A DNA stretch of 64,000 nucleotides, taken from Ignavibacteriales bacterium. GTDB taxonomy: Bacteria > Bacteroidota > Ignavibacteria > Ignavibacteriales > Ignavibacteriaceae. The notes beneath the pieces were generated by a model, which ran no database searches, was not told the origin of the DNA, and saw only the letters and a list, made by a program, of their open reading frames with translations. Numbering within the stretch: position 1 is the stretch's first letter; the number at the start of each line of letters is the position of its first letter. The position numbers were made by a program, and so were the translations under genes. Positions 11,130 through 43,623 of this stretch are shown piece by piece. Where the stretch lies: assembly GCA_015709675.1 (NCBI GenBank), contig CP054182.1, positions 3,885,448 through 3,949,447 of the forward strand, read 5' to 3'.

Positions 11130-13055
11130 TTACTGTTGGCTAATGCCCGGAGCTTCTTCCCATTTATATTCGGGAATAAAACTTTTTATCAGGTTTTTCA
11201 GACTGTCACTATCTCCCCTGAGCGCCATTGAGTGAAGTTCACCCACAAAAAGTTCCAGTTCAGGGTTTATGATTTCCGAGGAGTTTTTGGCATAAAAAAT
11301 CTTTTGATGAAGGGTCCGCTCATAACTTTCCTCTTCGAGGAAAAGCTCTTCATATAGTTTTTCACCAGGGCGCAGCCCGGTAAATTCAATCCTTACATCA
11401 AGATCTTCCCGGAGACCTGAAAGACGGATCAGATCACGGGCAAGGTCAACAATCTTTACCGGCTCACCCATATCAAGAACATAAATCTCACCGCCCGAAC
11501 TGAGCACCGAAGCCTGAAGCACCAACTGGACTGCCTCCGGAATTGTCATGAAAAAGCGCTTGATATCCGGATGGGTAATGGTAATCGGACCACCATAATT
11601 AAGCTGTTTCCGGAAGGTGTTAATGACACTTCCTCTACTACCAAGAACATTGCCAAAACGGACAGCGCAGGCATTCAGTCCGCTATTTTTTGCATGCGAG
11701 AGGACAAGCATTTCCGCAAGGCGCTTGCTGGCACCCATGATGCTGGTCGGATTAACCGCCTTATCCGTTGAGATCAGAACGAAATTCTTTACCTCGTACT
11801 TTACCGCTGCTTTCAGGAGATTCAGGGTTCCGAGCACATTATTGCTGATCGCTTCGGCCGGATTATGCTCCATCAGAGGGACATGCTTATGGGCCGCAGC
11901 ATGATAAACAGCATCGGGACGAGATTCGCTAAAAACATGCTCAACCCGGTTGAAATTGCGAATATCAACAATCCGGGAGAGAATAAGAGGTCTTGGCTGA
12001 CCGCCATTCATTTTATTCAGCCGGAAATAGAGTTCCTGCTCAATTTCAAAAACGGAGTTTTCTCCATGTCCAAGGATGATAATTTTTGAGGGACGGGCTT
12101 TCAGAATCTGACGGCAGAGTTCACTTCCTATGGAGCCGCCACCACCAGTTATGAGAACTGTTTTGCCTGAAAGAAAGGTTTTCACCGCATCCGCGTCAAT
12201 GACCACCGGATCACGGCGAAGAAGGTCTTCAATCTGCACCTTACGGATATTATCCAGCCGGACATTCTGATTGAGCATTTCATCCAGACCAGGAAGGGTG
12301 AGAGTCTCAATTCCGATTCTCTCACAGTCGTGCAGAATAGAACGGATTTCCTTACCACTCGCTGAAGGCATAGCAATTATGACTCGGGTGGCATTTGTAT
12401 GATGCACCGCTTCCTCAAGTTTTGAGATGCTTCCGAACACCTCAACACCTCGGATACGGGTGTTGTGTTTTGCCGGATCGTCATCAAGAAACGCAAGAGG
12501 GTTCATGTTGAGTTTGTTGTTCCGCTGCATCTCTTCAACGATCGCAGTTCCCCCCAAACCGGCACCGATTACTATAGTGGGAATTTTGTGGGAATCATTT
12601 TTCCCAAGCCGCTGGTTTGCCCGCTCAAATAGGCGAACACTAAAGCGGGTAGTCGCCACGAAAAAACCTGAGAGGATTGAATCCAGCAGGGAGAAGGAGT
12701 AGGGCAAGGATTCCATGTGGAGTCCCGGAATCTTCCTTATCGCCAGAAAAACAATAAATTGGGCAATGCTGGCATTGAGACCAATAAAAAGGAGGATGGC
12801 AAGTTCATCAATACTCGCTGTCTTCCAGAAACGGCGGTAAAGCCCAAGGAGGTAAAACACCAGCATTTTTACCGCGGTAAAAATCAGTGTTGCATAGAGA
12901 ATCCCCGTGAGCGCATTTGAATGCTGGGGAAACTCCCCGTCAAATCTGAGAACATACGCTATAAGGGGGGTAATCAGGAGGAATATCAAATCGATATAAA
13001 CGAAATGACGATTCCTGAGATCCTTTGTAAACGCGTAAAATTTCCGAAACGGCAT
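11130..13055 (-). CDS. membrane-bound nucleotide-sugar 4,6-dehydratase (FlaA1/CapD/PglF family)
   Basis: The 641-residue protein has four or five hydrophobic segments in the first 140 residues, a CoA-binding-like Rossmann fold (VIGAGLGGTAIVEEM, near residue 165) and a C-terminal SDR domain with LITGGGGSIGSELCRQIL (near 305), YHAAAHKHVPLMEHNP and LISTDKAVNPTSIMGASKR. This matches full-length PglF/WbpM enzymes, which convert UDP-GlcNAc to UDP-2-acetamido-2,6-dideoxy-4-hexulose at the inner membrane. With the DegT aminotransferase at 15052 it should give a UDP-4-amino-4,6-dideoxy-GlcNAc. It is followed by an intrinsic terminator and preceded by a 254-bp spacer. Confidence 0.92.
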   Translation of the reverse strand: MPFRKFYAFTKDLRNRHFVYIDLIFLLITPLIAYVLRFDGEFPQHSNALTGILYATLIFTAVKMLVFYLLGLYRRFWKTASIDELAILLFIGLNASIAQFIVFLAIRKIPGLHMESLPYSFSLLDSILSGFFVATTRFSVRLFERANQRLGKNDSHKIPTIVIGAGLGGTAIVEEMQRNNKLNMNPLAFLDDDPAKHNTRIRGVEVFGSISKLEEAVHHTNATRVIIAMPSASGKEIRSILHDCERIGIETLTLPGLDEMLNQNVRLDNIRKVQIEDLLRRDPVVIDADAVKTFLSGKTVLITGGGGSIGSELCRQILKARPSKIIILGHGENSVFEIEQELYFRLNKMNGGQPRPLILSRIVDIRNFNRVEHVFSESRPDAVYHAAAHKHVPLMEHNPAEAISNNVLGTLNLLKAAVKYEVKNFVLISTDKAVNPTSIMGASKRLAEMLVLSHAKNSGLNACAVRFGNVLGSRGSVINTFRKQLNYGGPITITHPDIKRFFMTIPEAVQLVLQASVLSSGGEIYVLDMGEPVKIVDLARDLIRLSGLREDLDVRIEFTGLRPGEKLYEELFLEEESYERTLHQKIFYAKNSSEIINPELELFVGELHSMALRGDSDSLKNLIKSFIPEYKWEEAPGISQQ

Positions 13056-13309: not shown

Positions 13310-15016
13310 TTAGTTAAATCCATACCCTGAACCAAAACTGATTTCCGCATATTTATAATCGGAGGGCTTAATCTGGTTGTTTTTTCCCCAAGCATTAGAA
13401 ATGACTGCGCTGACATCAAAAAACCAATTGTTAAGAAACTCATATTCCCCCCTTAAGGAAACAGTTAGGTAACCGCTTTTATCACCGTAGAGAAACGTCT
13501 GCCCGCTCTTGTAACGCTTTTCAGAATTGTTAAAAAAATCACCTCTGCGGACGAAGGTGTTTTCATTCACCAGACGAATCTTTTCATCATATATATAACT
13601 GAACTCCAGATACATCATATCCGCATTTGAGCCGATCCAGTGCCCCATATAGTAATTTCTGTTACCGTAAGACTGCGCCGGATCATCATGCTCATAAACA
13701 AAAGGATTCACCCTGACATATTCTATTTTTGCCGAGAGATTATCAACCAGCAAATCGTGCCTGGTAAGCCCCGCGGAGAAAGCAACTGCTTCGGGATATT
13801 TTCCCGTAATATTGGAAATGCTCAGTTCATCAATAAACACAGAAAGATCAATCCGAGATTTCCACCCGGGAATCCGGTAACTCAGAGAGGAGAACATCTG
13901 AGCATTCCCGGATGTTTCATCCTTGTTGGTAAAATAGTGATCAGCAAATCTAAAAAGGAGAACCGGCACCAGATACATCGGTTCAAAACGGTCTGAATAT
14001 ATCACTGACTCCCCCAAAGAAAATCTTAGGTCTTCCCACAGATTTACCGTAACGATGTGGGCAGCAAAGTATTTGGGCACCAGTTGAATGTGGTTTCTTC
14101 CGCCATCTGTTCTTCTGAACGTTGCACTATCAAGAATTCCGGAGTTGAGGTCACCGTGAACATACGATATATCCACCCATTCAGCAGGAGACATTGTAAG
14201 CCGTATATGCGGATAAGAAGGAGCCTTGTCAGAATGTATTATCTGACCATCATAACCATTGCCCCACAAAACATTATCCTTCACTAAAGCAACATTTCCC
14301 CATGACCAGGAATACGTTAAATTTCCCTCTGTTTTATCGTGGTTAAATGTTCCTGTTGAAGCACGCCCTGTTCCAAATTCATAGCCCTGAAGTGGAGAAA
14401 ATTTTCTGCCGGTTCCAATCCCAGAGTGTTTTTCAGAGTAATCATTAAACTTCAGATCATAGGATACGTTCTCACCAACAGAGCCAAAGGCAGCAGCACC
14501 GTTCCAATAGTTTAACACATATTCCCCCGACTTCTGGTATGCATACGAAAAGCCACCATCGAACATGGCGTTTACATAGAAGTTTCCGTCGTAATACTCA
14601 AGGTTGCGGAAAGCGCTATTTGAGTTAAAAGCGAGAAAAGTGACTAGTGACTGGTGGTTAGTGACTAGTGGGGAGTCGATGGTGCTTGGTTCTTGGTGCT
14701 TAGTGGTTAGTGAGGGAAGGGGGTATTCATCGATGAAATACTGAAGTTCGGAGCGTTCAATTGGGTTAAGGATCCGGGAAGAGTCTTTTTGGCCAATTTC
14801 GATTAGTTTCTTCAGAATAAACTGACGCGTGAAGGGCTTTTGATGGTGATTGATTGAAATATACCCCTTTACATCCATGCGGTCTAAGAAATCGTATATT
14901 TTATCATTATTACTTATGTTACTTTGGGCCGAGATATATCCATATCCGAACAAAAACCAAATAATTATGAAGTATAAATTATGAAGTATGAGTGGACTTC
15001 TACTTGAGAATTTCAT
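13310..15016 (-). CDS. Wzi-like capsule-assembly outer-membrane beta-barrel protein
   Basis: I choose ATG 15016, which opens a signal-peptide-like N-terminus (LYFIIIWFLFGYGYISAQS); the longer frame overlaps the upstream aminotransferase. The mature start (IYDFLDRMDVKGYI) and PIERSELQYF are typical of the Wzi/capsule-assembly family. The rest alternates short beta strands and ends in an aromatic-containing strand (FGSGYGFN), as outer-membrane barrels do. Wzi-type proteins help attach capsule to the cell surface. Oddities: heptamer repeats are embedded in the coding sequence at 14640-14716, encoding [19 protein letters not shown], and a second repeat overlaps the signal-peptide codons. Confidence 0.78.
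   Translation of the reverse strand: MKFSSRSPLILHNLYFIIIWFLFGYGYISAQSNISNNDKIYDFLDRMDVKGYISINHHQKPFTRQFILKKLIEIGQKDSSRILNPIERSELQYFIDEYPLPSLTTKHQEPSTIDSPLVTNHQSLVTFLAFNSNSAFRNLEYYDGNFYVNAMFDGGFSYAYQKSGEYVLNYWNGAAAFGSVGENVSYDLKFNDYSEKHSGIGTGRKFSPLQGYEFGTGRASTGTFNHDKTEGNLTYSWSWGNVALVKDNVLWGNGYDGQIIHSDKAPSYPHIRLTMSPAEWVDISYVHGDLNSGILDSATFRRTDGGRNHIQLVPKYFAAHIVTVNLWEDLRFSLGESVIYSDRFEPMYLVPVLLFRFADHYFTNKDETSGNAQMFSSLSYRIPGWKSRIDLSVFIDELSISNITGKYPEAVAFSAGLTRHDLLVDNLSAKIEYVRVNPFVYEHDDPAQSYGNRNYYMGHWIGSNADMMYLEFSYIYDEKIRLVNENTFVRRGDFFNNSEKRYKSGQTFLYGDKSGYLTVSLRGEYEFLNNWFFDVSAVISNAWGKNNQIKPSDYKYAEISFGSGYGFN
14640..14716. repeat. eleven heptamers inside the Wzi-like gene
   Basis: Units such as GTGACTA, GTGACTG, GTGGTTA, GTGCTTG and GTTCTTG follow one another with exact 7-bp period. 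The frame stays open through them. The peptide SLVTNHQSL-like stretch is also encoded by the repeat in the dehydrogenase gene at 57.9 kb. Confidence 0.9.
14966..14993. repeat. ATTATGA/AGTATGA heptamers in the signal-peptide region
   Basis: The words ATTATGAAGTATAAATTATG and AAGTATGA lie inside the 5' coding region and encode the hydrophobic LILHNLYFIII part of the predicted signal peptide. Confidence 0.75.
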
Positions 15017-15051: not shown

Positions 15052-16185
15052 TTAGCCTTTGAGTCTTTTGAAGATTACTTCTGAGATTCGGGAGAGGTCG
15101 GAGCTGGTTAGATTTGAGCCGGAAGGGAGGCAAAGTCCGTCATTAAACAAAGATTCTGAAACTCCGTTTGCATACTGCTTTGCCTGGCTGAAGACCGGCT
15201 GCAGATGCATTGGTTTCCATAACGGACGGGATTCAATGTTTTCCTGCTCGAGTGCAAGACGGATATCTTCCCTGGTAATTCCACCGGTTTTTGCAGGATC
15301 GATAATTACCGTTGTGAGCCAGCGATTTGAAAAACTGCCTTCAGGTTCGGATAAAAAGTAAAATCCCTCAATACCATCAAAAGTTTTTACATAAAAATCA
15401 AAATTTGCTCTGCGCTGTGCAACACGATCTGCCACCACTTCCATCTGTCCCCTGCCAATACCGGCGCAGACATTGCTCATCCTGTAATTAAAACCAATGT
15501 GAGAATGCTGATAATGGGGAGCAGCATCACGTGCCTGGGTTGCAAGGAACCGGGCTTTTTTTACATATTCCTCATTATTTGAAATAAACGCACCGCCGCC
15601 AGAAGTTGTGATAAGTTTATTACCGTTAAAAGAGAGAATTCCAATATCACTAAAACCGCCAACATGCTTTCTGTGATATTTTGAACCTAGAGCTTCAGCT
15701 GCATCCTCAATAAGAGGAATTTCATACCTATTAGCAATTTCCCTGATCTCATTAATTTTTGCGGGCATTCCGTAGAGATGCACAAAAATAATCGCCTTTG
15801 CTTTTTTCCCTCTTTTAATGCCGTCCTTAAGCGCTTCTTCAAGAAGGGCTGGATCCATGTTCCAGGTATCCCGCTCACTATCAAGGAAAACAGGAGAAGC
15901 ACCCTGATACGAAATTGGATTTGCAGATGCAGAAAAGGTAAAACTCTGGCATATAACCTCATCCCCCTGACCAACTCCAAGGATTATCAGGGCAAGGTGG
16001 ATGGCAGCCGTACCTGAAGAAAGCGCGGCAGCATATTTAACGCCAGAAAAAGAAGCAAGATCCTGCTCAAAGCCATCAACATGAGGTCCAAGCGGAGCAA
16101 TCCAGTTCGTATCAAAAGCGTTTTGTATATATTTTAATTCATTCCCACCCATATGCGGGGAGGAGAGCCAAATCCGGGGTTTCAT
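15052..16185 (-). CDS. DegT/DnrJ/EryC1 sugar aminotransferase (PglE-like)
   Basis: PLP-dependent transfer of an amino group to a 4-keto nucleotide sugar. ATG 16185 gives the typical start MKPRIWLSSPHMGGNE; the longer frame only adds a TTG-initiated MNNN leader. PLP-site landmarks are SSGTAAIHLAL, EDAAEALGSKY and SFNGNKLITTSGGG, with the Schiff-base Lys. It lies close to the PglF-like dehydratase and upstream of a PglD/PglC pair, matching UDP-bacillosamine-type pathways. The likely product is a UDP-2-acetamido-4-amino-2,4,6-trideoxyhexose. Its stop is separated by 35 bp from the start of the Wzi-like gene. Confidence 0.9.
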   Translation of the reverse strand: MKPRIWLSSPHMGGNELKYIQNAFDTNWIAPLGPHVDGFEQDLASFSGVKYAAALSSGTAAIHLALIILGVGQGDEVICQSFTFSASANPISYQGASPVFLDSERDTWNMDPALLEEALKDGIKRGKKAKAIIFVHLYGMPAKINEIREIANRYEIPLIEDAAEALGSKYHRKHVGGFSDIGILSFNGNKLITTSGGGAFISNNEEYVKKARFLATQARDAAPHYQHSHIGFNYRMSNVCAGIGRGQMEVVADRVAQRRANFDFYVKTFDGIEGFYFLSEPEGSFSNRWLTTVIIDPAKTGGITREDIRLALEQENIESRPLWKPMHLQPVFSQAKQYANGVSESLFNDGLCLPSGSNLTSSDLSRISEVIFKRLKG

Positions 16186-16193
16186 ATTATTAT

Positions 16194-16997
16194 TCAATCA
16201 GATAAGTAGCGGGCATAAAACATACCCATTGATTCATAAATTACACTATTCAATATATCCATTTTTCGCCATGAAGGAATCAGACCTGACTTCGGGAACT
16301 GAGGGTCCTCCTTCACAAGAAAATCACAAGGAACAGGTGTCACAGGTATGCCATACTTACTAAACCAATAGACCGCGCGGGGCATATGTATGGCACTAGT
16401 CACTAAATAGATATCAATATTTTGCTCAGGAAATCGTTTCGTTAATTCATCCAATCGACTCCTGCATGACCGAGCTTCATCCTCTGTAATAAATGTATCC
16501 GAAAGATGCAAAGTATCTTTGGGCAAAACACCAAGAGAAATTGCAGCTTCAGCAACCGCCTGAGCCTGAGAGATACTGCTATTCACAGAAGCACCGGAAG
16601 TAATAAAATATGCGGAATCAAGTTTATTATATAAACCAACTCCTTCCGCCATGCGGGCGAGGACACTATTGCTTAACTTTGTTGTGGGGGATAAGTTGGG
16701 ATCATTAGTAAATCCAGAACCCAATATCATTATCACATTTACCTTTTCAACAGGATCATCAATCCTGCCAGAATTACTATAATTATCTTCCCGTTCAATA
16801 ATCTCTGCCGCCCAAAAAGAAACAGGTGAAATAAATACTATAAAGAAAAAAATTCCAATAAAAATTAATGATAGCCGAAATTTTTTTATGTCCCCCCGCG
16901 AGACAAAAAAATGAATGAGACATAACCCAAAAACAAATTGAAGACTGATGATGAATTTAATGGCAATAAAAATCCAATCAGTTAATTCTTCAATAAT
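16194..16997 (-). CDS. ElyC/YdcF (DUF218)-like membrane protein with no standard start codon
   Basis: The C-terminal domain shows VIMILGSGF, YFITSGASVN, SDTFITEDEARSC, LVTSAIHMPRA and YWFSKYGIPVTPVPCD, all DUF218 hallmarks. The family normally has two N-terminal membrane segments. The first available start (GTG 16736) would omit them, yet the frame runs on upstream and encodes exactly such segments (IKFIISLQFVFGLCLI and LSLIFIGIFFFIVFISPV). No ATG, GTG or TTG lies in frame before them; ATT codons at 16997 and 16994 are the nearest candidates. An ATG at about 17035 opens a different frame that stops after 15 codons, so a one-base indel is also possible. DUF218 proteins affect envelope and polymer biogenesis; exact function is unknown. 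Confidence 0.7.
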   Translation of the reverse strand: MIEELTDWIFIAIKFIISLQFVFGLCLIHFFVSRGDIKKFRLSLIFIGIFFFIVFISPVSFWAAEIIEREDNYSNSGRIDDPVEKVNVIMILGSGFTNDPNLSPTTKLSNSVLARMAEGVGLYNKLDSAYFITSGASVNSSISQAQAVAEAAISLGVLPKDTLHLSDTFITEDEARSCRSRLDELTKRFPEQNIDIYLVTSAIHMPRAVYWFSKYGIPVTPVPCDFLVKEDPQFPKSGLIPSWRKMDILNSVIYESMGMFYARYLSD

Positions 16998-17038: not shown

Positions 17039-17581
17039 TTATTTCTTTCGCAGTTCAACAAGCTGCTCGGCTTTACGAATAATTTCCTCCCTGTACTTAC
17101 GTTTACCTACAGGAAGGCACTCCTGACCATCATAAACTGTCCAAGAATCAAGATTTTTCCTGACAATAGTCCCTGGATTTACTATTGCTCCTTCGCCAAT
17201 TTTGACACCGGGATAAATGAGAGAATTGGCACCTATAAATGCAAAATTATTGATTTCAACTGTCGATCTTTTCACCTTTCGTAGATTCGCGGGAACTGAG
17301 GGAGTAAACAAGGAATCGCCAAATATATCATCAGTCCCACTAATGATTTTTACCGCATAAGAAATGTCTACGAAATCCTGAATATACACCTCTCCACCAC
17401 CGGTTATCATTGCATAAGGTGCCAGATGCGAATACTTACCGATTTTAACAAACTTTTTGCCAAGGATAAAACAAAAATCACTTACAACAGCATGGTCATC
17501 TATGAATACTGTCTCAGGAAAAACAATCTTTGCCAAAGGAAATACTACAGCATCCTTTCCAATAAATAAAAAATCGCTCAT
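17039..17581 (-). CDS. left-handed beta-helix acyltransferase
   Basis: The 180-residue protein shows hexapeptide-repeat character throughout (VFIDDHAVVSDFCFI, VKIGKYSHLAPYAMI, FAFIGANSLIYPGVKIGEGA). These enzymes transfer acetyl or longer acyl groups to amino or hydroxyl groups of sugars. ATG 17581 overlaps the preceding gene's TGA (ATGA), so translation is probably coupled. As the last member of the acyl-building run (17-24 kb) it is a candidate for transferring the ACP-bound acyl group to the 4-amino sugar, an inference from context only. Confidence 0.75.
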   Translation of the reverse strand: MSDFLFIGKDAVVFPLAKIVFPETVFIDDHAVVSDFCFILGKKFVKIGKYSHLAPYAMITGGGEVYIQDFVDISYAVKIISGTDDIFGDSLFTPSVPANLRKVKRSTVEINNFAFIGANSLIYPGVKIGEGAIVNPGTIVRKNLDSWTVYDGQECLPVGKRKYREEIIRKAEQLVELRKK

Positions 17582-18243
17582 GCTTTCAGCAAATTTTTAA
17601 TCCCTGTTTTTTGAACTAGCACAGGATCATTGAGAGCGTTCTCCCCTCTAATTATATCACCATGCCCCGGGCAAATATAGCTTTCTTCACTCACCAAATT
17701 TCTGATTATTTGCAAACTATCACTAATTATCCTATTATCCCCTCCCTTTAGTTTTGTCACAACTTTTATCCCGGGGATATAGGCATCGCCTGTAAAGATA
17801 TAAGAGTCTAATTTATATGTAAGGCAACTTGGGTTATGACCAGGAGTATAATGAACTTTTACAGAGCAATTATTGAAAATACTCACCTCAGAATTATGAT
17901 CAACCAGAGAAACATTCCCCCGATTATAGTAAACCGGAGATTCATGATAGAAGGATAGGTTGATCTTTGCGGATCGAAGGCCTTCCAAGCCATGTTCATT
18001 GGTGATTATCCTGCAATTCGGGTACTTATCAACTAATTCGTTTATCCCCCAAATGTGATCATAATGATAATGAGTGAGGAATAAATCAGAAATTTCGAAG
18101 TTATAACTCAACTTTGCAGCAACACACTCAAAATCCCCAATATCGATCAGACATGCTCTTCGCAGTGTATCATTTGTGATCAGATAACAATTTGAAGTAA
18201 AACTTCTGTTCCTGATTTGTTCAACTTTGTATTCTGCAGGCAT
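17578..18243 (-). CDS. metallo-beta-lactamase-fold hydrolase
   Basis: Zinc-binding motifs are complete: THYHYDHIWG (HxHxDH), TPGHNPSC, FTGDAYIPG and CPGHGDII. Glyoxalase-II-like proteins of this size hydrolyse thioesters. Start and stop overlap the neighbours by one or a few bases (TAATG with the acyl carrier gene upstream, ATGA with the acyltransferase downstream), placing it firmly in the acyl operon. A role in releasing or proofreading acyl-ACP is suggested by position but not shown. Confidence 0.8.
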   Translation of the reverse strand: MPAEYKVEQIRNRSFTSNCYLITNDTLRRACLIDIGDFECVAAKLSYNFEISDLFLTHYHYDHIWGINELVDKYPNCRIITNEHGLEGLRSAKINLSFYHESPVYYNRGNVSLVDHNSEVSIFNNCSVKVHYTPGHNPSCLTYKLDSYIFTGDAYIPGIKVVTKLKGGDNRIISDSLQIIRNLVSEESYICPGHGDIIRGENALNDPVLVQKTGIKNLLKA

Positions 18244-18461
18244 TAGCCCATGAAATCCAGAATGTCTTTGATAGTCTTAAATTCTTTTATTTGTTCGCCG
18301 GTGAGTTTTTTATTAAAGTTCTCATCACAAACAACAATAAGAGTTAGTTTCGCCAGCGAATCAAACGTCTCAATTTGATCAAGAGCGGTATTTTCTGATA
18401 ATGTTCCAGATTCGAGTTCAAAAGAATCTTCAAGTAACGCTATTTTTTCTTCGTTAGACAT
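18243..18461 (-). CDS. acyl carrier protein
   Basis: A small acidic helical protein of 72 residues with the phosphopantetheine attachment Ser in the DSL motif (IETFDSLAKLTL). ATG 18461 is preferred over the TTG six codons upstream because the usual helix I begins just after it. The sequence differs from housekeeping AcpP and from the second carrier at 20005, pointing to dedicated carriers for one pathway. Its stop overlaps the hydrolase start. Confidence 0.78.
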   Translation of the reverse strand: MSNEEKIALLEDSFELESGTLSENTALDQIETFDSLAKLTLIVVCDENFNKKLTGEQIKEFKTIKDILDFMG

Positions 18462-18487
18462 ATGTAACCTTTTTTTCAATAATAGAA

Positions 18488-19237
18488 TTAACTACTTAAA
18501 AATCCCCCATCAACCGGGATACTACTTCCGGTAATAAACCTTGATTTTTCACTCAGCAAAAAAACAATAACATTGGCAATATCTTCAGGCTCAGCCAAAC
18601 CCAAAAACTGCCTCTTTAACACTGGATCCTCCCCTGAAGCAGCAAGTTTCATCAAATCAGAGTAGGCAGGAGTATTTGTCTGACCCGGCATTACAGTATT
18701 TAACCGAATATTTTTAGAACTCAGTTCAACAGCCAGACAGCGGAAAGCCGCATCTACTGCCGCTTTTGAGGCAGAATAAGCAGTAACTGCCGCGCTTCCA
18801 CGGGTTGCAGCAATTGAGGATACCGAAACGATACTCATGCCATCCTGATACCGGTTCCGCTGGGACAAACACCTCACCATTTCTATCACAGCCCCAAAAT
18901 TTATACCTAAAATATTTGCAATCTTATCCGGCTTTAAGAGTGACAATGGTGAGCGGGACCTGATCCCCACACAATTCACATATCCATGCAGCTTACCGTT
19001 TTCAAGAATCACCGAACTGACCAAACTTTCAATCTGATGAATTTCTTTAAAGTTGAATTGATAAACGGTATGCCAATCGTTTTTTAATGATTTTTTAAGC
19101 TGCAAAAGACTTTCAAGATCAATATCAACAAGAGCTAGCTTTGCACCAAAAGAATCCAGCATCACTGCAACAGATTTTCCAATACCTACAGCAGCTCCAG
19201 TGATCAGAATTGTTTTACCCGCTAATTCAGCATGCAT
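18488..19237 (-). CDS. short-chain dehydrogenase/reductase (FabG-like)
   Basis: The 249-residue classical SDR has TGAAVGIGKSVAVML at the nucleotide site, a Ser in VSVSSIAATRG, and catalytic YSASK. The C-terminus (FITGSSIPVDGGF) is characteristic of FabG-type reductases. Sandwiched between two acyl carrier genes and a FabH-like gene, it most likely reduces a 3-ketoacyl-ACP to 3-hydroxyacyl-ACP with NADPH. Confidence 0.85.
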   Translation of the reverse strand: MHAELAGKTILITGAAVGIGKSVAVMLDSFGAKLALVDIDLESLLQLKKSLKNDWHTVYQFNFKEIHQIESLVSSVILENGKLHGYVNCVGIRSRSPLSLLKPDKIANILGINFGAVIEMVRCLSQRNRYQDGMSIVSVSSIAATRGSAAVTAYSASKAAVDAAFRCLAVELSSKNIRLNTVMPGQTNTPAYSDLMKLAASGEDPVLKRQFLGLAEPEDIANVIVFLLSEKSRFITGSSIPVDGGFLSS

Positions 19238-19246
19238 ATATTTCTT

Positions 19247-20005
19247 TCAAATTGTGTATCCCCCATCAAGAACAAGTGCTGTACCAGTAATCATTCTTGA
19301 TCCATTGCTTAATAGAAAAGCTACTGCATTGGCAATATCCTCCGGCTCAATTACACCTAAGATTTGCTTTGAAAAATCAGAATCGCCGGACAATGCCATA
19401 TTATTCTGAATAAAGTCCTGCTGCATATCTGTTGACACCCAGCCTTTCTGAATGGAGTTGACCCGAATTGACCTTACCCCAAATTCGGCTGCTGCTGAGC
19501 GAACAGCAGCATCCAAAGCTGCCTTTGAGGCAGAATAAGCAATTTTGGACTTTAAACCCCTGATGCTGCTAACAGAGGAGAGAGCAACTATTGATGCTCC
19601 TTCCATTAGTATATTTTTTTTGCTGATTATTCTTAACAGTTCAATGAAAGCAAAAACATTTGCGATAAACATATCTTCCACAAATTTCTGTTTTGTCAAC
19701 TGAACTGGTCGAACTCCACCAATCCCATAACAATACACCACCCCATGCAATGGACCATGCTTTTCAGAAATGTTTTTAATAACTGATTCGAATTCAGAAT
19801 TATTCTTAAAATCACATTCCGCGAAATCTGCCGCAATCTCTGTTCTAAGTACATAGTTCGAACCATCCTGGCTGTCTGAATTGTTTAATAAAAGCACCTG
19901 TGCTTTTAACGAAAGCAACTTTTTAGCAATCGAGGACTCAGTACTGCCTGAACCGCCAACCAGAAGTACACTCTTATTCCTTAGAACAAATGGGTTCTCA
20001 AGCAT
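19247..20005 (-). CDS. second short-chain reductase with altered nucleotide motif
   Basis: A 252-residue SDR paralogous to its neighbour. YSASK and SSVSSIRG are intact, and the tail MITGTALVLDGGY is FabG-like. The usual TGxxxGIG is replaced by VGGSGSTESS, lacking two of the glycines, so cofactor binding may differ. Two reductases in one operon would fit two keto reductions in a dihydroxyacyl product, or one could be an epimerase or dehydratase partner. Its ATG overlaps the stop of the carrier protein gene. Confidence 0.8.
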   Translation of the reverse strand: MLENPFVLRNKSVLLVGGSGSTESSIAKKLLSLKAQVLLLNNSDSQDGSNYVLRTEIAADFAECDFKNNSEFESVIKNISEKHGPLHGVVYCYGIGGVRPVQLTKQKFVEDMFIANVFAFIELLRIISKKNILMEGASIVALSSVSSIRGLKSKIAYSASKAALDAAVRSAAAEFGVRSIRVNSIQKGWVSTDMQQDFIQNNMALSGDSDFSKQILGVIEPEDIANAVAFLLSNGSRMITGTALVLDGGYTI

Positions 20006-20232
20006 TATTTCTGCTGTAGTCTTTCAACCATCTTCATAATCGCCCCTGCAGAGTTAAAATTTTCAGGTCCGAGCTCATTTACCCTTATTGAAATGTCAAA
20101 TTCATCATTTAAAACAGATATTATAGAAACAATATCAAATGAGTCGAGGACTGCATTGTCTATTAATTTCTCTTCATTTGCAAAATCAACATCAGGTCTT
20201 ATATCAGTCAGTATTTCGATCAGTTTGTCCAT
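20005..20232 (-). CDS. second acyl carrier protein
   Basis: 75 residues, acidic and helical, with the attachment Ser in NAVLDSFDIVSII. It overlaps the downstream SDR start (TAATG). Its helix II (VSIISVLNDEFDISI) is typical of carrier proteins. Two carriers in one short operon suggest either a loading and an extending carrier or two acyl chains. Confidence 0.8.
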   Translation of the reverse strand: MDKLIEILTDIRPDVDFANEEKLIDNAVLDSFDIVSIISVLNDEFDISIRVNELGPENFNSAGAIMKMVERLQQK

Positions 20233-20247
20233 AGATTTTAAGAATTT

Positions 20248-21054
20248 TTACCTTTTTATCAGAGATGTCGTAAATTTATTTGCAGATGTAAACCCGAACT
20301 TTCGATATAACTCGAGGGCCGGTAAGTTATTATTAAGTACCCACAACTGATAGCGTGAGGGAATGGAAGTAAAGTTATCTTTTAAGTACCGTGATACCAG
20401 TTTTTTTGCGATACCCTTTCCTCTGAAATCAGAATCAACGCAAATATGTCCCAACCAAACCACGCCATGCTTGATTTCAAACTGCAAAATTCCTGCCGGC
20501 TGACCGCCATCATAAGCAATTAACAAACAGTTGTTATCAGCATATTGCTTGAGTTCTATGATACTCAGAATATCTCCGGTGTATTTATCAAGTGTTGCAT
20601 CAATAATCTTCTTCGCATATTCTATCTCAAAAGCAGATTCAGCATACTTAATAGTAAAGCTCTCAAATTCTTCAAAACTCAACTCTAATTTATCATAAAC
20701 ACCTTGCATATTTACACGTGTAAGATGATTTGCAAAACCACAATTTAACCAATAATCAATAATCCTCTTTGGATAATTGTTCTCTCCACGATAAATTATT
20801 TCCATCACCACGGGCAAGCCCATGCCAATATTGAGAATTTCCTCAACATTATTAATGAAGTAATACATTCGGAAAAAATCATCCTTCTGCAGGAACAAGG
20901 CACAATTCGATTCCGAATCAGTATAATATAGCTTTCGCTCTCTGATTAGTGTGTGATAAGAATCAGCTAAAAGATAATTATTGGTCTGCGTCTTTTTGAT
21001 AAAGTAACGCTCAAATAAATCATCCAGCTGTTCTTCATTTTCTATCAGTTTCAT
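20248..21054 (-). CDS. GNAT-family acyltransferase with N-terminal extension
   Basis: The last 120 residues form a GNAT fold: the acyl-CoA/pantetheine loop reads DSDFRGKGIAKKLV, and the end (LWVLNNNLPALELYRKFGF) is classic. The first 140 residues are a less conserved, second GNAT-like or accessory domain. GNAT enzymes N-acylate amines; within this operon it is the strongest candidate to move an acyl group from ACP or CoA to an amino sugar or amino acid. It starts 18 bp after the ligase gene. Confidence 0.8.
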   Translation of the reverse strand: MKLIENEEQLDDLFERYFIKKTQTNNYLLADSYHTLIRERKLYYTDSESNCALFLQKDDFFRMYYFINNVEEILNIGMGLPVVMEIIYRGENNYPKRIIDYWLNCGFANHLTRVNMQGVYDKLELSFEEFESFTIKYAESAFEIEYAKKIIDATLDKYTGDILSIIELKQYADNNCLLIAYDGGQPAGILQFEIKHGVVWLGHICVDSDFRGKGIAKKLVSRYLKDNFTSIPSRYQLWVLNNNLPALELYRKFGFTSANKFTTSLIKR

Positions 21055-21072
21055 TTAAAAACCTTGTCTAAT

Positions 21073-22605
21073 TCAGGATAATTCACCATTATTATACTGA
21101 TTTTTTAATAATGTACGATCTATTTTACCATTCAGATTATATGGCATCTCCCCAAGTTTTATCATAATATTGGGATACATATACTTCGGGAACTTATCTT
21201 TAATGGAGTTGATGATATATTTGTTGTCAGCGTCCTCCCCTTGAAATATAAGAACAATTTTCTGCTTATCATGATCATAAAAACAGATTGAGGCGTCAAT
21301 CAATTCCAGGGAATTAATTAACAACTCGATTTCACCAAGTTCAACTCTTTGCCCCATATGTTTTACCTGATTATCTTTTCTCGATAAAAACATGATCTGA
21401 CCCTCGCTATTATATCTGGCAAGATCCCCAGTACGGTAAATCTTTTCAGGGTAGCTGTCATTTAGAGGATTCTGACAAAAGGCCTCAGCCGTTTTCTCCG
21501 GATTATTGTAATAGCCCAGGGCTAAGCAGCACCCACGAACACAGATTTCACCTATTTCATCACCTGTTACCGGCTGATTCTTCTCATTCAGCAAAAGAAT
21601 TTCGGTATTCTTAAATGGCATCCCGATCGGCAAGGGTTCATCGTCTCCAAATGGTCTATCCGCAATAAAATATGAACAGACAGAAGTAATTTCGGTAGGC
21701 CCATACAAGTTTACAAACATGGTTTCAGGAAGCGTCTTACGCCAGTAATTAAGAACTTTATTATGCATTACTTCACCCGAGAACATGACTTTTTTTAAGG
21801 AGGATGGCTTTTCCAGCTCAAATGCTCCTGTATTCGCAACCAGTGCTATGGCAGCTGCTGACCATAAAATGAGATTTATCTGATATTTATTCAGATAGTC
21901 AACTAGTTTTGCCGGGAACACAAAACATGATTTCGGAATGATGTACATTGTACCACCGCATTTCAAGGTACAATATATGTCTTTAATTGATGCATCAAAA
22001 TAGAATGGATTTTGATTACCAACAATGATATTTTCATCAAAATTAAAAGTACTCACTAGTGCTTCTGTCATATCTACAACTGATCGCTGACAGGTAATTA
22101 CTCCTTTAGGAATTCCCGTTGAACCTGAAGTAAATGTTGCATAGATGGGATCCGTGTCTACCGAAAATCGCCTAATCCTAGCCAATTCATCCTCAGCAAC
22201 TACCGGATTTTTAATTGCCTCCTCATAAACGATGGTCGCTAATCCGGGGGCTATACTTCGAGAAAACTCCACTTCAGATGCCAAAACAACCGTTGCGATT
22301 GGTTTAAGCGTTTGAAGAATCAGTTCGATCCGGGATTTGGGCATCTGCTTGTCAATAGGCACATAAAAATTACCGCTATAGGCGACACCTACAAAGGAAA
22401 CAAGACTTTCAAGATTCCGATCAACATAAACCACAATCGGTTTTCTCTTTGCATTTCCAGTGGCTTTTAGAAGTGTAGTTCCTATTCTCTTGCCAAAATC
22501 CACCAACTCAGAATAAGTAACCTGCTTTTCTTCCTCAGCAAAAACTACTTTGTGAGGAACTCTTTTTTCAGAATTTTCGATGTAATCTAAAATATTCGTG
22601 ACCAA
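21073..22605 (-). CDS. AMP-forming acyl- or aminoacyl-activating enzyme
   Basis: The 510-residue protein has the adenylation core motifs TFTSGSTGIPKGV, NLYGPTE, YRTGDLARY and the catalytic Lys in NGKIDR. The overall pattern resembles DltA and stand-alone adenylation domains that load carrier proteins. TTG 22605, with AGAGGA upstream, is the only start before the conserved N-terminus. It probably activates a carboxylic or amino acid and loads it on one of the two carriers next door, providing the starter unit. Confidence 0.85.
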   Translation of the reverse strand: MVTNILDYIENSEKRVPHKVVFAEEEKQVTYSELVDFGKRIGTTLLKATGNAKRKPIVVYVDRNLESLVSFVGVAYSGNFYVPIDKQMPKSRIELILQTLKPIATVVLASEVEFSRSIAPGLATIVYEEAIKNPVVAEDELARIRRFSVDTDPIYATFTSGSTGIPKGVITCQRSVVDMTEALVSTFNFDENIIVGNQNPFYFDASIKDIYCTLKCGGTMYIIPKSCFVFPAKLVDYLNKYQINLILWSAAAIALVANTGAFELEKPSSLKKVMFSGEVMHNKVLNYWRKTLPETMFVNLYGPTEITSVCSYFIADRPFGDDEPLPIGMPFKNTEILLLNEKNQPVTGDEIGEICVRGCCLALGYYNNPEKTAEAFCQNPLNDSYPEKIYRTGDLARYNSEGQIMFLSRKDNQVKHMGQRVELGEIELLINSLELIDASICFYDHDKQKIVLIFQGEDADNKYIINSIKDKFPKYMYPNIMIKLGEMPYNLNGKIDRTLLKNQYNNGELS

Positions 22606-22620
22606 TATATTATCCTCTTT

Positions 22621-23715
22621 TTATAAATCCTTAACAGAACTGATTATTCCTTCTTCAAAAACTGAATCATCTTCAATGACTGGAAGTATATCGTCTGTAT
22701 TAATTATAGCTGAAAACGCACCCCATGAAAGTCCCACACCAAATCCACAAAAGAAAGCATTAATATTTTTACCGAGTGTCCCTGCATAAGTATCACAAAG
22801 GGTAATAACCGGAGACGCACCTGACGTATTACCAAATTTTCCTAACGTGATTGGCATTTTATCCTCCGGAATTTTAACTTTCCGGGCAATCTGTTTCAGT
22901 ATGTACAGATTCGCCTGATGAAATGCGAAACTATCGTAATTATCAACTGAAGTTTGCGTGATACTTAAATAGTCTTTAATGAGTTTCGGCACATCACTGA
23001 TCGTGAAGGTGAAAACTGATGTACCCTGCATAAAAGAATGATGCAATGTCCGTTCATTTCCATCGGCACAAATTTCCGGTTCCCTGTTGGCATTTAAGTT
23101 TCTGTAACCACCACCTGGTACTATAAGATATCTGTATCCATTCCCATCAGAGCGTGTCAGCGAAACAATAGGACTGCAATGATCGCATTTTTCCATCAAC
23201 ACTGCAACACTACCTTCCCCAACCAGCATAATTGAAGCCCGATCTTTTGGATAAGTTGTCTTAGAAGCGGTATCACCAACAATAAGTATGGCTTTCTTTA
23301 TATCTGAAGAATTCATCATTGAGGCAACTACCTGAAATCCGTAGATGAATGAGGAGCAGCCAAGACCAAGATCGAAGACAGCTGTTTCAACAGAAAGTCC
23401 AAGCCTTTTATGAATTACAAATGCCGTTCCAGGTCTTCTGTAATCAGGACTTGTACTGCCAAATACAAGAGCTCCGATCTCATTCCTATCAATATTCTTT
23501 TGAGAAAGCAGTTTATCAGCTGCAGTGTAACCCAGGTCAGAAGCAGTCTGAAATTCAGAGGTTCTGCGTGTCTCTTTAATTCCAGTCATTACCATAAATT
23601 TATCAACTTCAGCATCACCAAACTGCGATTTGAAGTCTTCAGGCCTGACAATATTTTTAGGTACGGCACTTGCCATACCTGCAATTCGAATGTTGTTATA
23701 TCTGAAAACTGGCAT
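22621..23715 (-). CDS. 3-oxoacyl-ACP synthase III-like ketosynthase
   Basis: FabH-type condensing enzyme: Cys in DLGLGCSSFIYG, His in FAFHQANLYIL and Asn in GKFGNTSGAS form the Cys-His-Asn triad. ATG 23715 (AAGGA upstream) fits homologues better than the TTG at 23736, which overlaps the preceding gene. It would condense a primed acyl group with malonyl-ACP. Only one condensing enzyme is seen, so the product is short, perhaps four to six carbons if used more than once. Confidence 0.87.
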   Translation of the reverse strand: MPVFRYNNIRIAGMASAVPKNIVRPEDFKSQFGDAEVDKFMVMTGIKETRRTSEFQTASDLGYTAADKLLSQKNIDRNEIGALVFGSTSPDYRRPGTAFVIHKRLGLSVETAVFDLGLGCSSFIYGFQVVASMMNSSDIKKAILIVGDTASKTTYPKDRASIMLVGEGSVAVLMEKCDHCSPIVSLTRSDGNGYRYLIVPGGGYRNLNANREPEICADGNERTLHHSFMQGTSVFTFTISDVPKLIKDYLSITQTSVDNYDSFAFHQANLYILKQIARKVKIPEDKMPITLGKFGNTSGASPVITLCDTYAGTLGKNINAFFCGFGVGLSWGAFSAIINTDDILPVIEDDSVFEEGIISSVKDL

Positions 23716-23725
23716 TTTATTATCC

Positions 23726-24370
23726 TTATAAATCAACCCGGCGGGCCGGATTACCTATATAAAAGCTATTATCCTTAGTTTTTCTCACCACCATACTCCC
23801 AGCACCGATTTTTGTGTTTATACCTATTTTGACATTCTGAAGGATAATTGCATTGATCCCAAAAAAATTACAATCTCCAATCTCAGTTCCGCCGGAAACA
23901 CGCACTAATGGCATAAGCACATTGTATGACCCGAGTTTACAATCGTGCGCAAGAGAGGAGATGCTGTTCATTTGATTAAAATCACCCACAGACACGTCAC
24001 ATGAAAATGAACATCCCCGAACGAAAACATTCCCAACACCTATTTTAAAAGATTCGGGATCTGCAAAAAAAACATCAGGGTGAATAATATTAGGAAAACT
24101 TATATTAGGGTTTGTAATATTGCTTACCAGCTTTCGCAGTATTTGCGGATTACCTATCGCAAAGGCAATATTTAAAGGAGATGACCAGGCATTAATTTTA
24201 TTCAGGCCCCCAATCACTTTGCCGAAGTGAGAAATCTGCTCACCAGGTGCTATTCCATCATCAAAATATCCTATAAGTTTCCAGACAGGTGAAATTTCGT
24301 TAATCTTGTTTAAAATACATGCTACTTCTTTACCAAAGCCACCGGCGCCATAGATAGCAATTTCTTTCAT
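23726..24370 (-). CDS. PglD/NeuD-like sugar acyltransferase
   Basis: The N-terminal half is a nucleotide-sugar-binding Rossmann-like domain (IAIYGAGGFGKEVACIL), and the C-terminal half a left-handed beta helix with the catalytic His in LAHDCKLGSYN. In PglD this enzyme N-acetylates UDP-4-amino-4,6-dideoxy-GlcNAc. It precedes the ketosynthase by 10 bp and follows a PglC-like transferase by 3 bp. Whether it uses acetyl-CoA or the operon's special acyl donor cannot be told from sequence. Confidence 0.85.
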   Translation of the reverse strand: MKEIAIYGAGGFGKEVACILNKINEISPVWKLIGYFDDGIAPGEQISHFGKVIGGLNKINAWSSPLNIAFAIGNPQILRKLVSNITNPNISFPNIIHPDVFFADPESFKIGVGNVFVRGCSFSCDVSVGDFNQMNSISSLAHDCKLGSYNVLMPLVRVSGGTEIGDCNFFGINAIILQNVKIGINTKIGAGSMVVRKTKDNSFYIGNPARRVDL

Positions 24371-24373: not shown

Positions 24374-24991
24374 TTAATCATTTCCCCTGAATGCTTCCAT
24401 CGTTACCGATGTTGAGGATGAAATCCCTTCACGCTTAATTACCTTAAATACCGTTAATAACAGAATTTTCATATCCAAAAAAAAGGAAACATTCTCAACA
24501 TACCAAACATCCAGATCAAATCTCTCCTGCCAGCTAATGGCATTTCTTCCATTTACCTGCGCCCAACCAGTAATTCCGGGTCTAACCTCATGCCTACGCG
24601 CTTGCCTGGCAGAATAAAGTGGAAGATATTTAATCAGTAAAGGACGGGGACCAATTAATGACATATCACCCTTCAGAACATTTATAAGTTGAGGAAGCTC
24701 ATCCAATGAAGTTGACCGTAAAAATTTGCCAATTTTCGTTAATCTTTGTGAATCATGGAGTAAGTTGCCATTTGCATCTTTTTCATCTGTCATAGTCTTG
24801 AATTTAATAAGCTTAAAGATTCTGCCGTATTTACCAGGACGGCTCTGGACAAAGAAAACATTAAACCTGTTTGAGAAGAACAAAAGAAAAATTAACAATA
24901 ATAAACAAGGTGATATTAGTAAAATAAGAGTTAAAGAGAATAAAAAATCAAAGATTCTTTTAAATAAAATAATATAGAGATTATTTTTCAT
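24374..24991 (-). CDS. initiating sugar-phosphate transferase (PglC/WcaJ family)
   Basis: A 205-residue monotopic phosphoglycosyl transferase with an N-terminal hydrophobic re-entrant helix ([20 protein letters not shown]), IKFKTMTDE, the catalytic Asp-Glu in [18 protein letters not shown], and [20 protein letters not shown]. It transfers a sugar-1-phosphate, here likely the trideoxy-diamino sugar, from UDP to undecaprenyl phosphate, starting each repeat unit. It is the compact PglC type rather than the large WbaP type. A GT4 gene follows 24 bp upstream in transcription order. Confidence 0.92.
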
Positions 24992-26268: not shown

Positions 26269-27393
26269 TTAATCGTTTTTCCGATTTATTAAATCACCCA
26301 ACTGCATTGAAGTCATGAATTCAACATCGGGCCAGTTCTTCACTATGGATTCAAGTAATTCTTTCAATTGTTTAAGACCATTAATTTGATTTTTTTCACT
26401 TATTGATCCAACATAACTGGACCTATGCGAAATAATAACAGCAGGCTTCTTCCACTTAAATGCCGAATCAATTTCTGCGAGACAGGAGTCAACGACATTG
26501 GACAAATTTAGAGGTCTATGTGGTTCAAAAGTGCAATTTCTGGTAAGATAAACTTGACCAAATTTATTTCGTTTACCAATCCAATGAAAATAAGGTCTAG
26601 TCTTTTTATTATAATAATTCGAATATTTGGTAACTTTAGCTCTCAAAAGAAATCTAATACCTAATTCGTGAGCTTTGCTTTCCAACTCTTTGGTGCCAAA
26701 TTCATCTGGCTCAATAAAATGCTTGGGGCGATATCCAAATGAGTTTTCAAACATCTTACAGGCTTCAACTAATGATTGCATTATAAAAGAAGTATCTTCA
26801 GGCAACTCTGGATCAAATGCTCCCAAATACATTGGAATAGGAACACCCTTAAATGAATCGGCCCCTATTGATCTGTGCTGAAACTGAACAATTGCTCCTT
26901 CATTATTACTTCTTAAGATTCGTAACCATCTCGGTGCATTTAAATGTTCTCTTCCATGCAATGCTGGAACAAAGATATGACTACCAATTCCTTCTAATAT
27001 AAGTTGCTTTACCTTATCATGACAAGGATAATCTTTGCAAGTTTCAAAAAAGTGTTCATAATGGTAATTTTGAAAATCATCGTCTTTAATCTTTTTATAA
27101 TCAGGATTAGCCATAATATACATTGGTGTAAAGACGGGATAATTTCCATACTTATCTTTTACTGCACTCAGAGTATCGTATAATCGCTCCAAATCGTTGT
27201 TTGACTCTAAGGAATCATACTTCGTGTAAGGATTTCCATTTAAGTTCAAACCCAATGACAACATTCTATCATAATCCGTCTTACTTCTTGTTCTTATACT
27301 TCCCCAATCATCAGATTCAATTACAACAATCTTCCTGTTAGATACAAATCCAATAATATTTTTTAGATTGCTACGAATGTTTTCCTTGGACAT
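26269..27393 (-). CDS. polysaccharide-deacetylase-like protein (paralogue A)
   Basis: The 374-residue protein is paralogous to 35236-36345. Shared marks are VVIESDDWGS near residue 25, HGREHLNAPRWL near 150, a FGYRPKHFIEPDEFG block, and ISHRSSYVG near 330. The paired Asp and the His-containing motifs recall the metal and catalytic motifs of the NodB/CE4 fold, but the order is not classical, so I call it deacetylase-like only. No signal peptide is present, suggesting action on cytoplasmic intermediates. It overlaps the next GT4 gene by 23 bp. Confidence 0.55.
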   Translation of the reverse strand: MSKENIRSNLKNIIGFVSNRKIVVIESDDWGSIRTRSKTDYDRMLSLGLNLNGNPYTKYDSLESNNDLERLYDTLSAVKDKYGNYPVFTPMYIMANPDYKKIKDDDFQNYHYEHFFETCKDYPCHDKVKQLILEGIGSHIFVPALHGREHLNAPRWLRILRSNNEGAIVQFQHRSIGADSFKGVPIPMYLGAFDPELPEDTSFIMQSLVEACKMFENSFGYRPKHFIEPDEFGTKELESKAHELGIRFLLRAKVTKYSNYYNKKTRPYFHWIGKRNKFGQVYLTRNCTFEPHRPLNLSNVVDSCLAEIDSAFKWKKPAVIISHRSSYVGSISEKNQINGLKQLKELLESIVKNWPDVEFMTSMQLGDLINRKND

Positions 27394-42669: not shown

Positions 42670-43623
42670 TTAAACCGTCCCAACTATTCCAATTTTTCTA
42701 AAACTGCGGAACAAAAAAGTTCTTAGAAATAATGGCAACAACATAAACACACGCAATACAAACTCTGACGAAAGTTTTGACTTCAAAAATTCCGAATAAA
42801 TATTATTTGTTGATAAGATCTCTATCGCTTTCTTTTTAGGAATTATTCCCAAAAAATACCATAATGTAGCTCTTCCGTTATTCTTAGCCATATCAGATAA
42901 TTCAGAGCCGTTTTCAAAGTAACCTGCAAGAACTTTGTCATAGATATAAGCGATTGAAAGCATACAATGAATGTGAGTGTTTATGTTTTTTGAATCTTGT
43001 TCCAAATGAGTTCCATACCGGAGAAGTTTTTTTTGTTCTCCAAACACAGAAAGTTCTTTAATCTTTTCATAAACCCATAACCAGTCGTTCGAAGCATGAA
43101 ATGCTGTGTAATATTCTGTAAACTTGCTTTTATTAACTATAAAAGCATACGGAATACCTAACTTATATCTTATTCCATATTCAATTATCTTCATTCCATT
43201 TTCACAATATCCAAAAGGATATATATGCTTATGAGATGATACATTATTATTTGCTAAATCAAATAAGGAAAAATCAGTGAAATAGAAATCTAAATTCGGA
43301 TAATTGTTAAGGGTCTTAATAAACTCTTCCACAAATGTGGCTTCCAAAATGTTATCATCTTGAAAAATCATTGAATATTTTGTTCTGGTCAAGGACATAC
43401 ATTTGTTCCAATTGGGAAACAGTCCGATATTCGATTCATTCCTATGATATTCTACATTATATTTTTCACATGTTTCTTTAAAGAAATTATGAGAAGAACA
43501 GTTATCAACTACAATTATATGGCATTTTACTGTCTGATGGAGGATTGATAAGAGTGCCTTTTCAAAGAAATCCTTCCTTTCATAAACAGGCATTGTAATT
43601 GTTAAAGCATCGGAAATTTTCAT
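42670..43623 (-). CDS. GT2-family glycosyltransferase
   Basis: A GT-A transferase with TITMPVYERKDFFEKALLSI, IIVVDNCSSHN and the metal motif FQDDNILE (in place of the usual DxD). ATG 43623 overlaps the epimerase stop (ATGA), and the longer frame from TTG 43650 only adds nine unlikely residues. It follows the dideoxyhexose genes directly, so it may transfer that sugar. Confidence 0.82.
   Translation of the reverse strand: MKISDALTITMPVYERKDFFEKALLSILHQTVKCHIIVVDNCSSHNFFKETCEKYNVEYHRNESNIGLFPNWNKCMSLTRTKYSMIFQDDNILEATFVEEFIKTLNNYPNLDFYFTDFSLFDLANNNVSSHKHIYPFGYCENGMKIIEYGIRYKLGIPYAFIVNKSKFTEYYTAFHASNDWLWVYEKIKELSVFGEQKKLLRYGTHLEQDSKNINTHIHCMLSIAYIYDKVLAGYFENGSELSDMAKNNGRATLWYFLGIIPKKKAIEILSTNNIYSEFLKSKLSSEFVLRVFMLLPLFLRTFLFRSFRKIGIVGTV

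Follow-up and report, generated by a model that had tools for sequence, protein, structure and literature searches.

Gene content of the cassette

The window analysed here is a stretch of 64,000 nucleotides from an Ignavibacteriales bacterium (assembly GCA_015709675.1, contig CP054182.1, positions 3,885,448 to 3,949,447), and within it a cassette of ten minus-strand open reading frames (ORFs) fills positions 17,039-24,370. In order of transcription these encode a PglD/VioB/NeuD-type amino-sugar N-acyltransferase (PglD; 23726..24370), a FabH-like ketosynthase of the ketoacyl synthase III type (KASIII; 22621..23736), a predicted stand-alone amino-acid adenylation domain of 510 aa (the ligase; 21073..22605), a 268-aa N-acyltransferase of the Gcn5-related N-acetyltransferase family (GNAT; 20248..21054), a putative DltC-like aminoacyl carrier (acyl carrier protein 1, ACP1; 20005..20232), two FabG-like short-chain dehydrogenases/reductases (SDR2, 19247..20005, and the FabG-like reductase SDR1, 18488..19237), a second carrier protein (ACP2; 18243..18479), a GloB-like metallo-beta-lactamase-fold hydrolase of 221 aa (17578..18243) and a WcaF/NeuD-like hexapeptide acyltransferase of 180 aa (HexAT; 17039..17581). 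On the same strand, the gene for a PglC-like sugar-phosphate transferase (24374..24991; Bac_transf 217.9 bits) precedes PglD in transcription order, and 3' of the cassette a 302-bp gap and a DUF218 gene are followed by a PglE/LegC-like aminotransferase for the sugar 4-amine (15052..16197; DegT_DnrJ_EryC1 330.1 bits; LegC model TIGR04181 394.5 bits, cut-off 420), a Wzi-like gene and a PglF-like 4,6-dehydratase (11130..13055; Polysacc_synt_2 389.4 bits, with CoA_binding_3). The expected product of PglF and PglE is UDP-4-amino-4,6-dideoxy-GlcNAc (UDP-QuiNAc4N).

A preliminary description of this sequence had proposed nine tightly packed, often overlapping genes forming a dedicated acyl-building cassette with two carriers, adjoining PglD/PglC-like genes, alongside PglF/PglE-like genes for a 4-amino sugar nucleotide. 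Each gene class was recovered with Pfam, PglF and PglE included, both carriers scoring below the curated cut-off; the count comes to ten with the PglD gene at 23,726-24,370. The packing is as described: the nine junctions range from -11 to +18 bp, and four of them overlap as listed. Moving the KASIII start to the ATG that aligns with the start of the Chitinophaga KASIII described below (near 23,715, the likely start) turns the -11 bp junction into a gap of about 10 bp and leaves three overlaps; ACP2 may have an alternative start at an ATG near 18,461. The G+C content is 38% in the cassette, 32% in the glycosyltransferase stretch before it, and 45% and 44% at the ends of the window.

The ligase scores above the cut-off of TIGR01733, the NCBIfam model for amino-acid adenylation (319.1 vs 317.4 bits); its second-best model, DltA, gives 295.2 bits against a cut-off of 476, short of a DltA assignment. 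Its closest solved relatives (best 60 of 78) are mostly adenylation domains of nonribosomal peptide synthetases (NRPS), together with DltA. Motifs A3 (TSGSTGIPK), A4 (FDAS) and A10 (NGKI) are present, and FDAS aligns with the adenylation domains of gramicidin synthetase; we presume the usual roles for the A10 lysine and for the A4 aspartate, the latter being, as we take it, the contact to the alpha-amine in NRPS adenylation domains. This aspartate is aligned in the ligases of two related cassettes, from Chitinophaga and Paenibacillus (TIGR01733 310.8 and 317.2 bits, both slightly below the cut-off), and is missing in the control ligases of two Parabacteroides KASIII cassettes (129.2 and 120.5 bits). 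The specificity code, read by eye at what we take to be the code positions as D-A-K-L-M-S-L-S-V-K, is identical in Chitinophaga and different in Paenibacillus; the lysine at its third place, a hint of an acidic side chain, was judged too weak for use. Judged by sequence, then, the ligase is an amino-acid adenylation domain and not a fatty- or hydroxy-acid ligase.

The carriers are more divergent. Both match Pfam PP-binding weakly (E 0.0045 for ACP2 and 0.0069 for ACP1; 17.7 and 17.0 bits, cut-off 20.8), and when the whole genome was searched with PP-binding at E 0.001, two other carriers came up but neither ACP1 nor ACP2. Both have counterparts in the Chitinophaga and Paenibacillus loci; among the carriers compared, the three ACP1 proteins are mutual best matches, as are the three ACP2 proteins. 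The best NCBIfam match of ACP1 is DltC in all three loci, each below the cut-off (36.6 bits in the window against 68, short of a DltC assignment). Carriers unable to take phosphopantetheine would refute the proposed cassette, as the preliminary description pointed out; both have the pantetheine serine (LDSFD in ACP1, FDSLA in ACP2), and the genome encodes one phosphopantetheinyl transferase of the ACPS family, which is consistent with carriers that can be loaded. Because of the TIGR01733 score, the A4 aspartate and the match of ACP1 to DltC, the ligase and ACP1 are probably an aminoacyl-loading pair, and since the ligase is of the amino-acid type the acyl group probably derives from an amino acid and is not simply a hydroxyacyl. 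The small pathway first proposed is right in outline and probably wrong in its building block; the assignment of its ligase to a plain fatty-acid or polyketide route is not supported.

The remaining enzymes mostly retain their catalytic motifs. KASIII (ACP_syn_III_C 73.1 bits) has its Cys (GLGCSS), His (FHQAN) and Asn (FGNTS), and in SDR1 (adh_short_C2 159.8 bits) the cofactor motif TGAAVGIG and the catalytic YSASK are both intact. SDR2 (adh_short_C2 152.3 bits) has a degenerate glycine cofactor motif: it and its Chitinophaga counterpart (positions 13727-14512 of that locus) keep YxxxK (YSASK in SDR2) and lack the TGxxxGxG found in the other seven of the nine SDRs compared. SDR2 may serve SDR1 as a structural partner, or may not be a reductase at all. 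PglD is above the Pfam cut-off for PglD_N (46.5 bits) and 2.1 bits below that of TIGR03570 (158.7 vs 160.8). The hydrolase (Lactamase_B 67.8 bits) belongs to the metallo-beta-lactamase fold family and has the metal motif HYHYDH, its best NCBIfam model, GloB, falling short of an identification (54.7 vs 200.8 bits); it is likely to be a thioesterase. HexAT (Hexapep 45.5 bits) possibly O- or N-acylates the same sugar. For the GNAT (Acetyltransf_1 54.8 bits, residues 168-255) we propose acylation of a carrier-bound amine; its predicted structure, a single-sequence model with a mean pLDDT of 43.7, was too low in confidence for use. Pfam detects no condensation domain and no transporter in the ten genes.

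Related cassettes in other genomes

The gene set, which had not been recognised in the preliminary description, is not unique: searches with KASIII and with the ligase returned one copy in the same order and one rearranged. The species-genome collection was scanned once with KASIII, a scan that reaches close relatives only; it gave 34 pattern matches and one confirmed locus, in a metagenome-assembled genome labelled Chitinophaga pinensis (Bacteroidota). This locus keeps the order of the window for PglC (56% identity), PglD (64%), KASIII (71%), the ligase (72%), ACP1 (71%), SDR2 (50%), SDR1 (52%), ACP2 (63%) and the hydrolase (46%), and has a second PglD-like gene 3' of the cassette. The slot of the GNAT, between ligase and ACP1, is taken by an unrelated Formyl_trans_N gene whose NxH and D motifs are present, as we would expect of an active enzyme. 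A 156-aa ORF considered as an overlooked GNAT was rejected, having no Pfam match and no similarity to the GNAT of the window. The exchange of a formyltransferase for the GNAT hints at a free amine on which the cassette works, capped with formyl in one strain and with an acyl group in the other, which fits an amino acid on ACP1.

When 72,556 plasmid records were searched with the ligase protein (E 1e-60), a single match emerged, in a record of Paenibacillus cellulosilyticus (Bacillota). The order there is ACP2 (42%), SDR, an AAC3-type acyltransferase, ligase (38%), GNAT (21% over 219 aa, E 4e-9), ACP1 (38%), KASIII (31%) and hydrolase (27%), a unit rearranged relative to the window that retains the ligase-GNAT-ACP1 adjacency. 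Genes of the secA and prfB types stand ahead of it and genes of the yitT and argJ types behind it; a counterpart of HexAT was looked for in this locus and not found. The same record has flagellin genes at a distance of about 37 kb, and it is possible that the cassette serves a flagellar glycan.

Closer to the host, the cassette is scarce (its own genome is counted throughout, and the draws share genomes). The ligase was matched in 2 of 59 relatives' genomes, own genome included (E 1e-60), in 1/164 genomes of the order (E 1e-75), in 5/391 of the class (E 1e-65; the four others 32-36% identical) and in 1/395 of the phylum (E 1e-80), with three candidates per genome scored among the matches listed for phylum and class; the one same-genus genome listed, 88% complete, gave no match. 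KASIII was matched in 4/391 genomes of the class (E 1e-70), the three others being simple cassettes (L015-L017, below). Several ligase relatives were not taken as cassettes: the other match among the 59 genomes, in G044 and 30% identical, lies within a 1,899-aa frame; of the four others in the class, two (L020, L021) lie in frames of about 1,560 aa that are probably multidomain; one (L019) is on a contig of only 3.2 kb; and one (L022) stands among a phosphoesterase, an aminotransferase, a glutamate-synthase-like gene and one small carrier. As its gene order is kept in another genome, the cassette is beyond chance, and we conclude that the ten-gene unit is real, conserved and rare.

Six other KASIII loci were compared (L006, L007, L008, L015, L016 and L017), in stretches of 10 to 17 kb, L015 beginning 0.9 kb before KASIII with its upstream side cut. 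None of the six has an amino-acid-type ligase. At E 0.01, tblastn found no match in them to the hydrolase, GNAT or ACP1 of the window, a search that is insensitive for carriers, as annotated or Pfam-confirmed ones in L006, L007, L016 and L017 were also missed. L016 and L017 carry the minimal combination of carrier, KASIII, SDR and PglD; in L017 this is followed by a hexapeptide gene with 50% identity to HexAT across 169 aa, sitting between PglD and PglE, and then by PglE- and PglF-like genes. Azospirillum accounts for 19 of the 23 plasmid records with KASIII matches, and the one context examined of the 19 (L008) has an SDR and a GNAT gene beside KASIII and no ligase match; the GNAT genes of L008 and L017 show no match to that of the window.

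The two Parabacteroides distasonis plasmid records (NZ_OY725812.1, L006; NZ_OY725780.1, L007) hold polysaccharide loci that resemble the window in having two carriers, an AMP-binding ligase, KASIII, one or two SDRs, a PglD-like acetyltransferase and a sugar transferase. They differ in their ligases, which are not of the amino-acid type and match that of the window weakly (E 3e-8 and 4e-12), and their second carrier is of another type; no GNAT or metallo-hydrolase match was found at E 0.01 in either (16.0 kb and 13.1 kb). These loci represent a second two-carrier type of acyl cassette.

Comparison with known systems

Structure work has already established 4-amino sugars that bear amino-acyl or hydroxyacyl amides, and genetics has done so for 3-hydroxyacyl cassettes. 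The parallel drawn in the preliminary description to Flavobacterium psychrophilum is a real one: there wfpC-wfpG, with pglE/pglF, are assigned to 3,5-dihydroxyhexanamido-QuiNAc4N (PMC6519341). The wfp locus shares with the window the sugar route, a dedicated carrier, a ketosynthase, a reductase and a pglD homologue, and FucNAc-type genes occur in both loci (in the window by Pfam only); it differs in having two ketosynthases and one carrier, and the word 'ligase' is absent from the main text of that report. Its arrangement is that of L017. An equally close parallel, which had gone unnamed, is the viosamine island of Pseudomonas syringae, comprising the KASIII vioS, the reductase vioR, acp and the acyltransferase vioB (PMC3927599); the same report also cites orfA-orfE of P. 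aeruginosa PAK, the product being N-(3-hydroxy-1-oxobutyl)-2-O-methylviosamine. Here too KASIII, an SDR, a carrier and a VioB/PglD-type transferase lie beside a 4-amino-sugar aminotransferase; the sugar nucleotide differs from that of wfp, and the seven-gene table of the report lists neither an adenylation domain nor a GNAT, nor a second carrier or a metallo-hydrolase. The window shares the features of such a system, namely the KASIII Cys-His-Asn, the carrier serine, a FabG-like SDR, a PglD-family transferase and nearby PglF/PglE-like genes, and its cassette is a simple cassette of the viosamine/wfp type plus an amino-acid module and a hydrolase.

DltA and DltC are a D-alanine ligase and its carrier. 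Like the lincosamide synthetase pair LmbC/LmbN-CP, in which an amino acid is loaded on a separate carrier for an amide to an amino sugar (PMC4351081), they resemble the window in pairing a stand-alone adenylation domain with a separate carrier; in the accounts at hand both differ in having no ketide module and other transfer enzymes. On the side of the products, 4-amino-4,6-dideoxyglucose is on record with amide-linked N-acetylglycyl, N-acetyl-D-alanyl and N-[(R)-3-hydroxybutyryl]-L-alanyl groups (PMC3210612; PMC8074265). The last of these groups, present in the Proteus vulgaris O4 antigen as 4-{N-[(R)-3-hydroxybutyryl]-L-alanyl}amino-4,6-dideoxyglucose (PMC8074265; the group also in PMC3210612), is explicable by a set of KASIII, SDR and amino-acid ligase, though in these sources it is known from structure, without a gene cluster. 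Glycan loci with fatty-acid-type genes have precedents, since enterobacterial and Aeromonas flagellar islands contain ACP, FabG and ligase genes (PMC4875605; PMC7874193). The open-access literature searched, outside which most subscription papers lie, yielded no glycan locus that combines KASIII and two carriers with an amino-acid adenylation domain, a weak sign that the combination is new, and no gene assignment for a mixed amino-acid/ketide amide on 4-amino sugars.

A proposed pathway and its alternatives

From the family memberships, motifs and conserved gene sets found in the sequence we infer every reaction of the following scheme. With moderate confidence, we propose that a discrete two-carrier pathway, combining NRPS-like steps with steps like those of type II fatty acid synthesis, would supply the 4-amine of UDP-QuiNAc4N with an acyl group derived from an amino acid. 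The adenylation domain would activate an amino acid and load it onto ACP1, and the carrier-bound amine would be N-acylated by the GNAT; KASIII would build or extend a ketide on ACP2, reduced by SDR1, with or without SDR2, to a beta-hydroxyacyl. The N-acylation and ketide steps could come in either order. PglD would then move the finished acyl to the sugar 4-amine, the metallo-hydrolase would clear stalled thioesters, and PglC would initiate the lipid-linked repeat unit.

The two modules could be joined in two ways. The ketide step could, if the cap is small, extend the amino acid, giving a gamma-N-acylamino-beta-hydroxy acid; or the GNAT could use the hydroxyacyl of ACP2 to cap the nitrogen, giving an N-(3-hydroxyacyl)aminoacyl amide, the kind of product found in Proteus vulgaris O4. 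We lean weakly to the former because in the Chitinophaga locus the latter would leave the KASIII product without an obvious acceptor. A bolder version, which we offer tentatively and think rather doubtful, is that an N-acylated amino acid on its carrier gains two carbons through KASIII. The sugar would then bear a statine-like gamma-acylamino-beta-hydroxy acid, and strains would switch their surface chemistry by exchanging its N-cap (acetyl-type from the GNAT, formyl from the formyltransferase); no such acyl group, nor such a KASIII reaction, turned up in the open-access literature searched. The product 3-hydroxy-2,3-dimethyl-5-oxoproline was considered and dropped, as it needs no reductase by the chemistry we recall and the unit has two SDRs.

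Several observations weigh against the proposed pathway. The best solved relatives of the Chitinophaga formyltransferase are sugar-amine formyltransferases (5vys, E 9e-14), followed by Met-tRNA formyltransferase; gramicidin-synthetase chains, in which the formylation domain modifies an amino acid attached to a carrier, rank behind both. Because those best relatives act on sugar amines, the formyltransferase may have a sugar as its substrate, and so, by analogy, may the GNAT. The solved relatives of the GNAT are weak and partial, SDR2 is without its cofactor glycine motif, and both carriers are weak Pfam matches. Three cassettes of this type have been found (the window, Chitinophaga and Paenibacillus); two of their three adenylation domains narrowly miss the TIGR01733 cut-off, and the Paenibacillus cassette is without a demonstrated polysaccharide role.

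An alternative that we regard as unlikely, though worth weighing, is that two separate acyls are made: a 3-hydroxyacyl from KASIII, SDR and ACP2, transferred by PglD to one amine, and an N-acylaminoacyl from the ligase, GNAT and ACP1, attached elsewhere by the hexapeptide acyltransferase. The window does have two hexapeptide-type acyltransferases and the Chitinophaga locus a second PglD-like gene after its cassette, and carrier, KASIII, SDR and PglD alone make complete simple cassettes in L016 and L017. However, in all three related loci the genes for the ligase, acylating enzyme and ACP1 sit between those for KASIII and SDR/ACP2, and the sole terminal-type sugar acyltransferase among the scanned Paenibacillus ORFs is the AAC3-type enzyme.

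Less probable still is a simple hydroxyacyl amide made from a carboxylic acid by ordinary fatty-acid or polyketide chemistry. Such a route would agree with the KASIII and SDRs in the unit and with the nearest published cassettes, which are assigned to 3-hydroxybutyryl or 3,5-dihydroxyhexanoyl groups, but the ligase is of the amino-acid adenylation type, and L015-L017, the simple cassettes, have no match to it even at E 1 and resemble the GNAT no better than chance. The presence of the amino-acid ligase leads us to favour a product other than a simple hydroxyacyl amide. That the genes form a small secondary-metabolite operon of the NRPS/polyketide type, placed in a polysaccharide locus by happenstance, is very improbable: it would account for the free-standing adenylation domain and carriers and for the matches, below cut-off, of ligase and hydrolase to the solanimycin proteins SolG and SolJ, but PglD and PglC are contiguous with the cassette in both the window and Chitinophaga, and Pfam finds neither a condensation domain nor a transporter in the ten genes.

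Other genes of the locus

Elsewhere in the window, positions 51810-55256 hold in a row an Epimerase_2 gene, an epimerase with Polysacc_synt_C and a Polysacc_synt_2 gene, resembling a UDP-L-FucNAc (fnlABC-type) set. Positions 43620-49392 hold a nucleotidyltransferase, a dehydratase, a 438-aa DegT aminotransferase, an NAD_binding reductase and epimerases, which we take to resemble the CDP-3,6-dideoxyhexose pathway. Within the polysaccharide locus, at 49435-51761, an MBOAT O-acyltransferase adjoins a 303-aa ORF without a Pfam match. The ORFs at 26269-27393 and 35236-36345 have no Pfam match or one below the cut-off; they are related to each other, since both match the same homologues in L016 and in the Chitinophaga locus, and perhaps belong to an undescribed family of polysaccharide-locus proteins.

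Implications

The cassette provides a concrete, testable gene set for a mixed amino-acid/ketide decoration, with relatives in two phyla, the Bacteroidota and Bacillota. The comparison points to polysaccharide loci that exchange entire acyl-building modules in the interval from PglC to PglE/PglF, which would alter their antigens.

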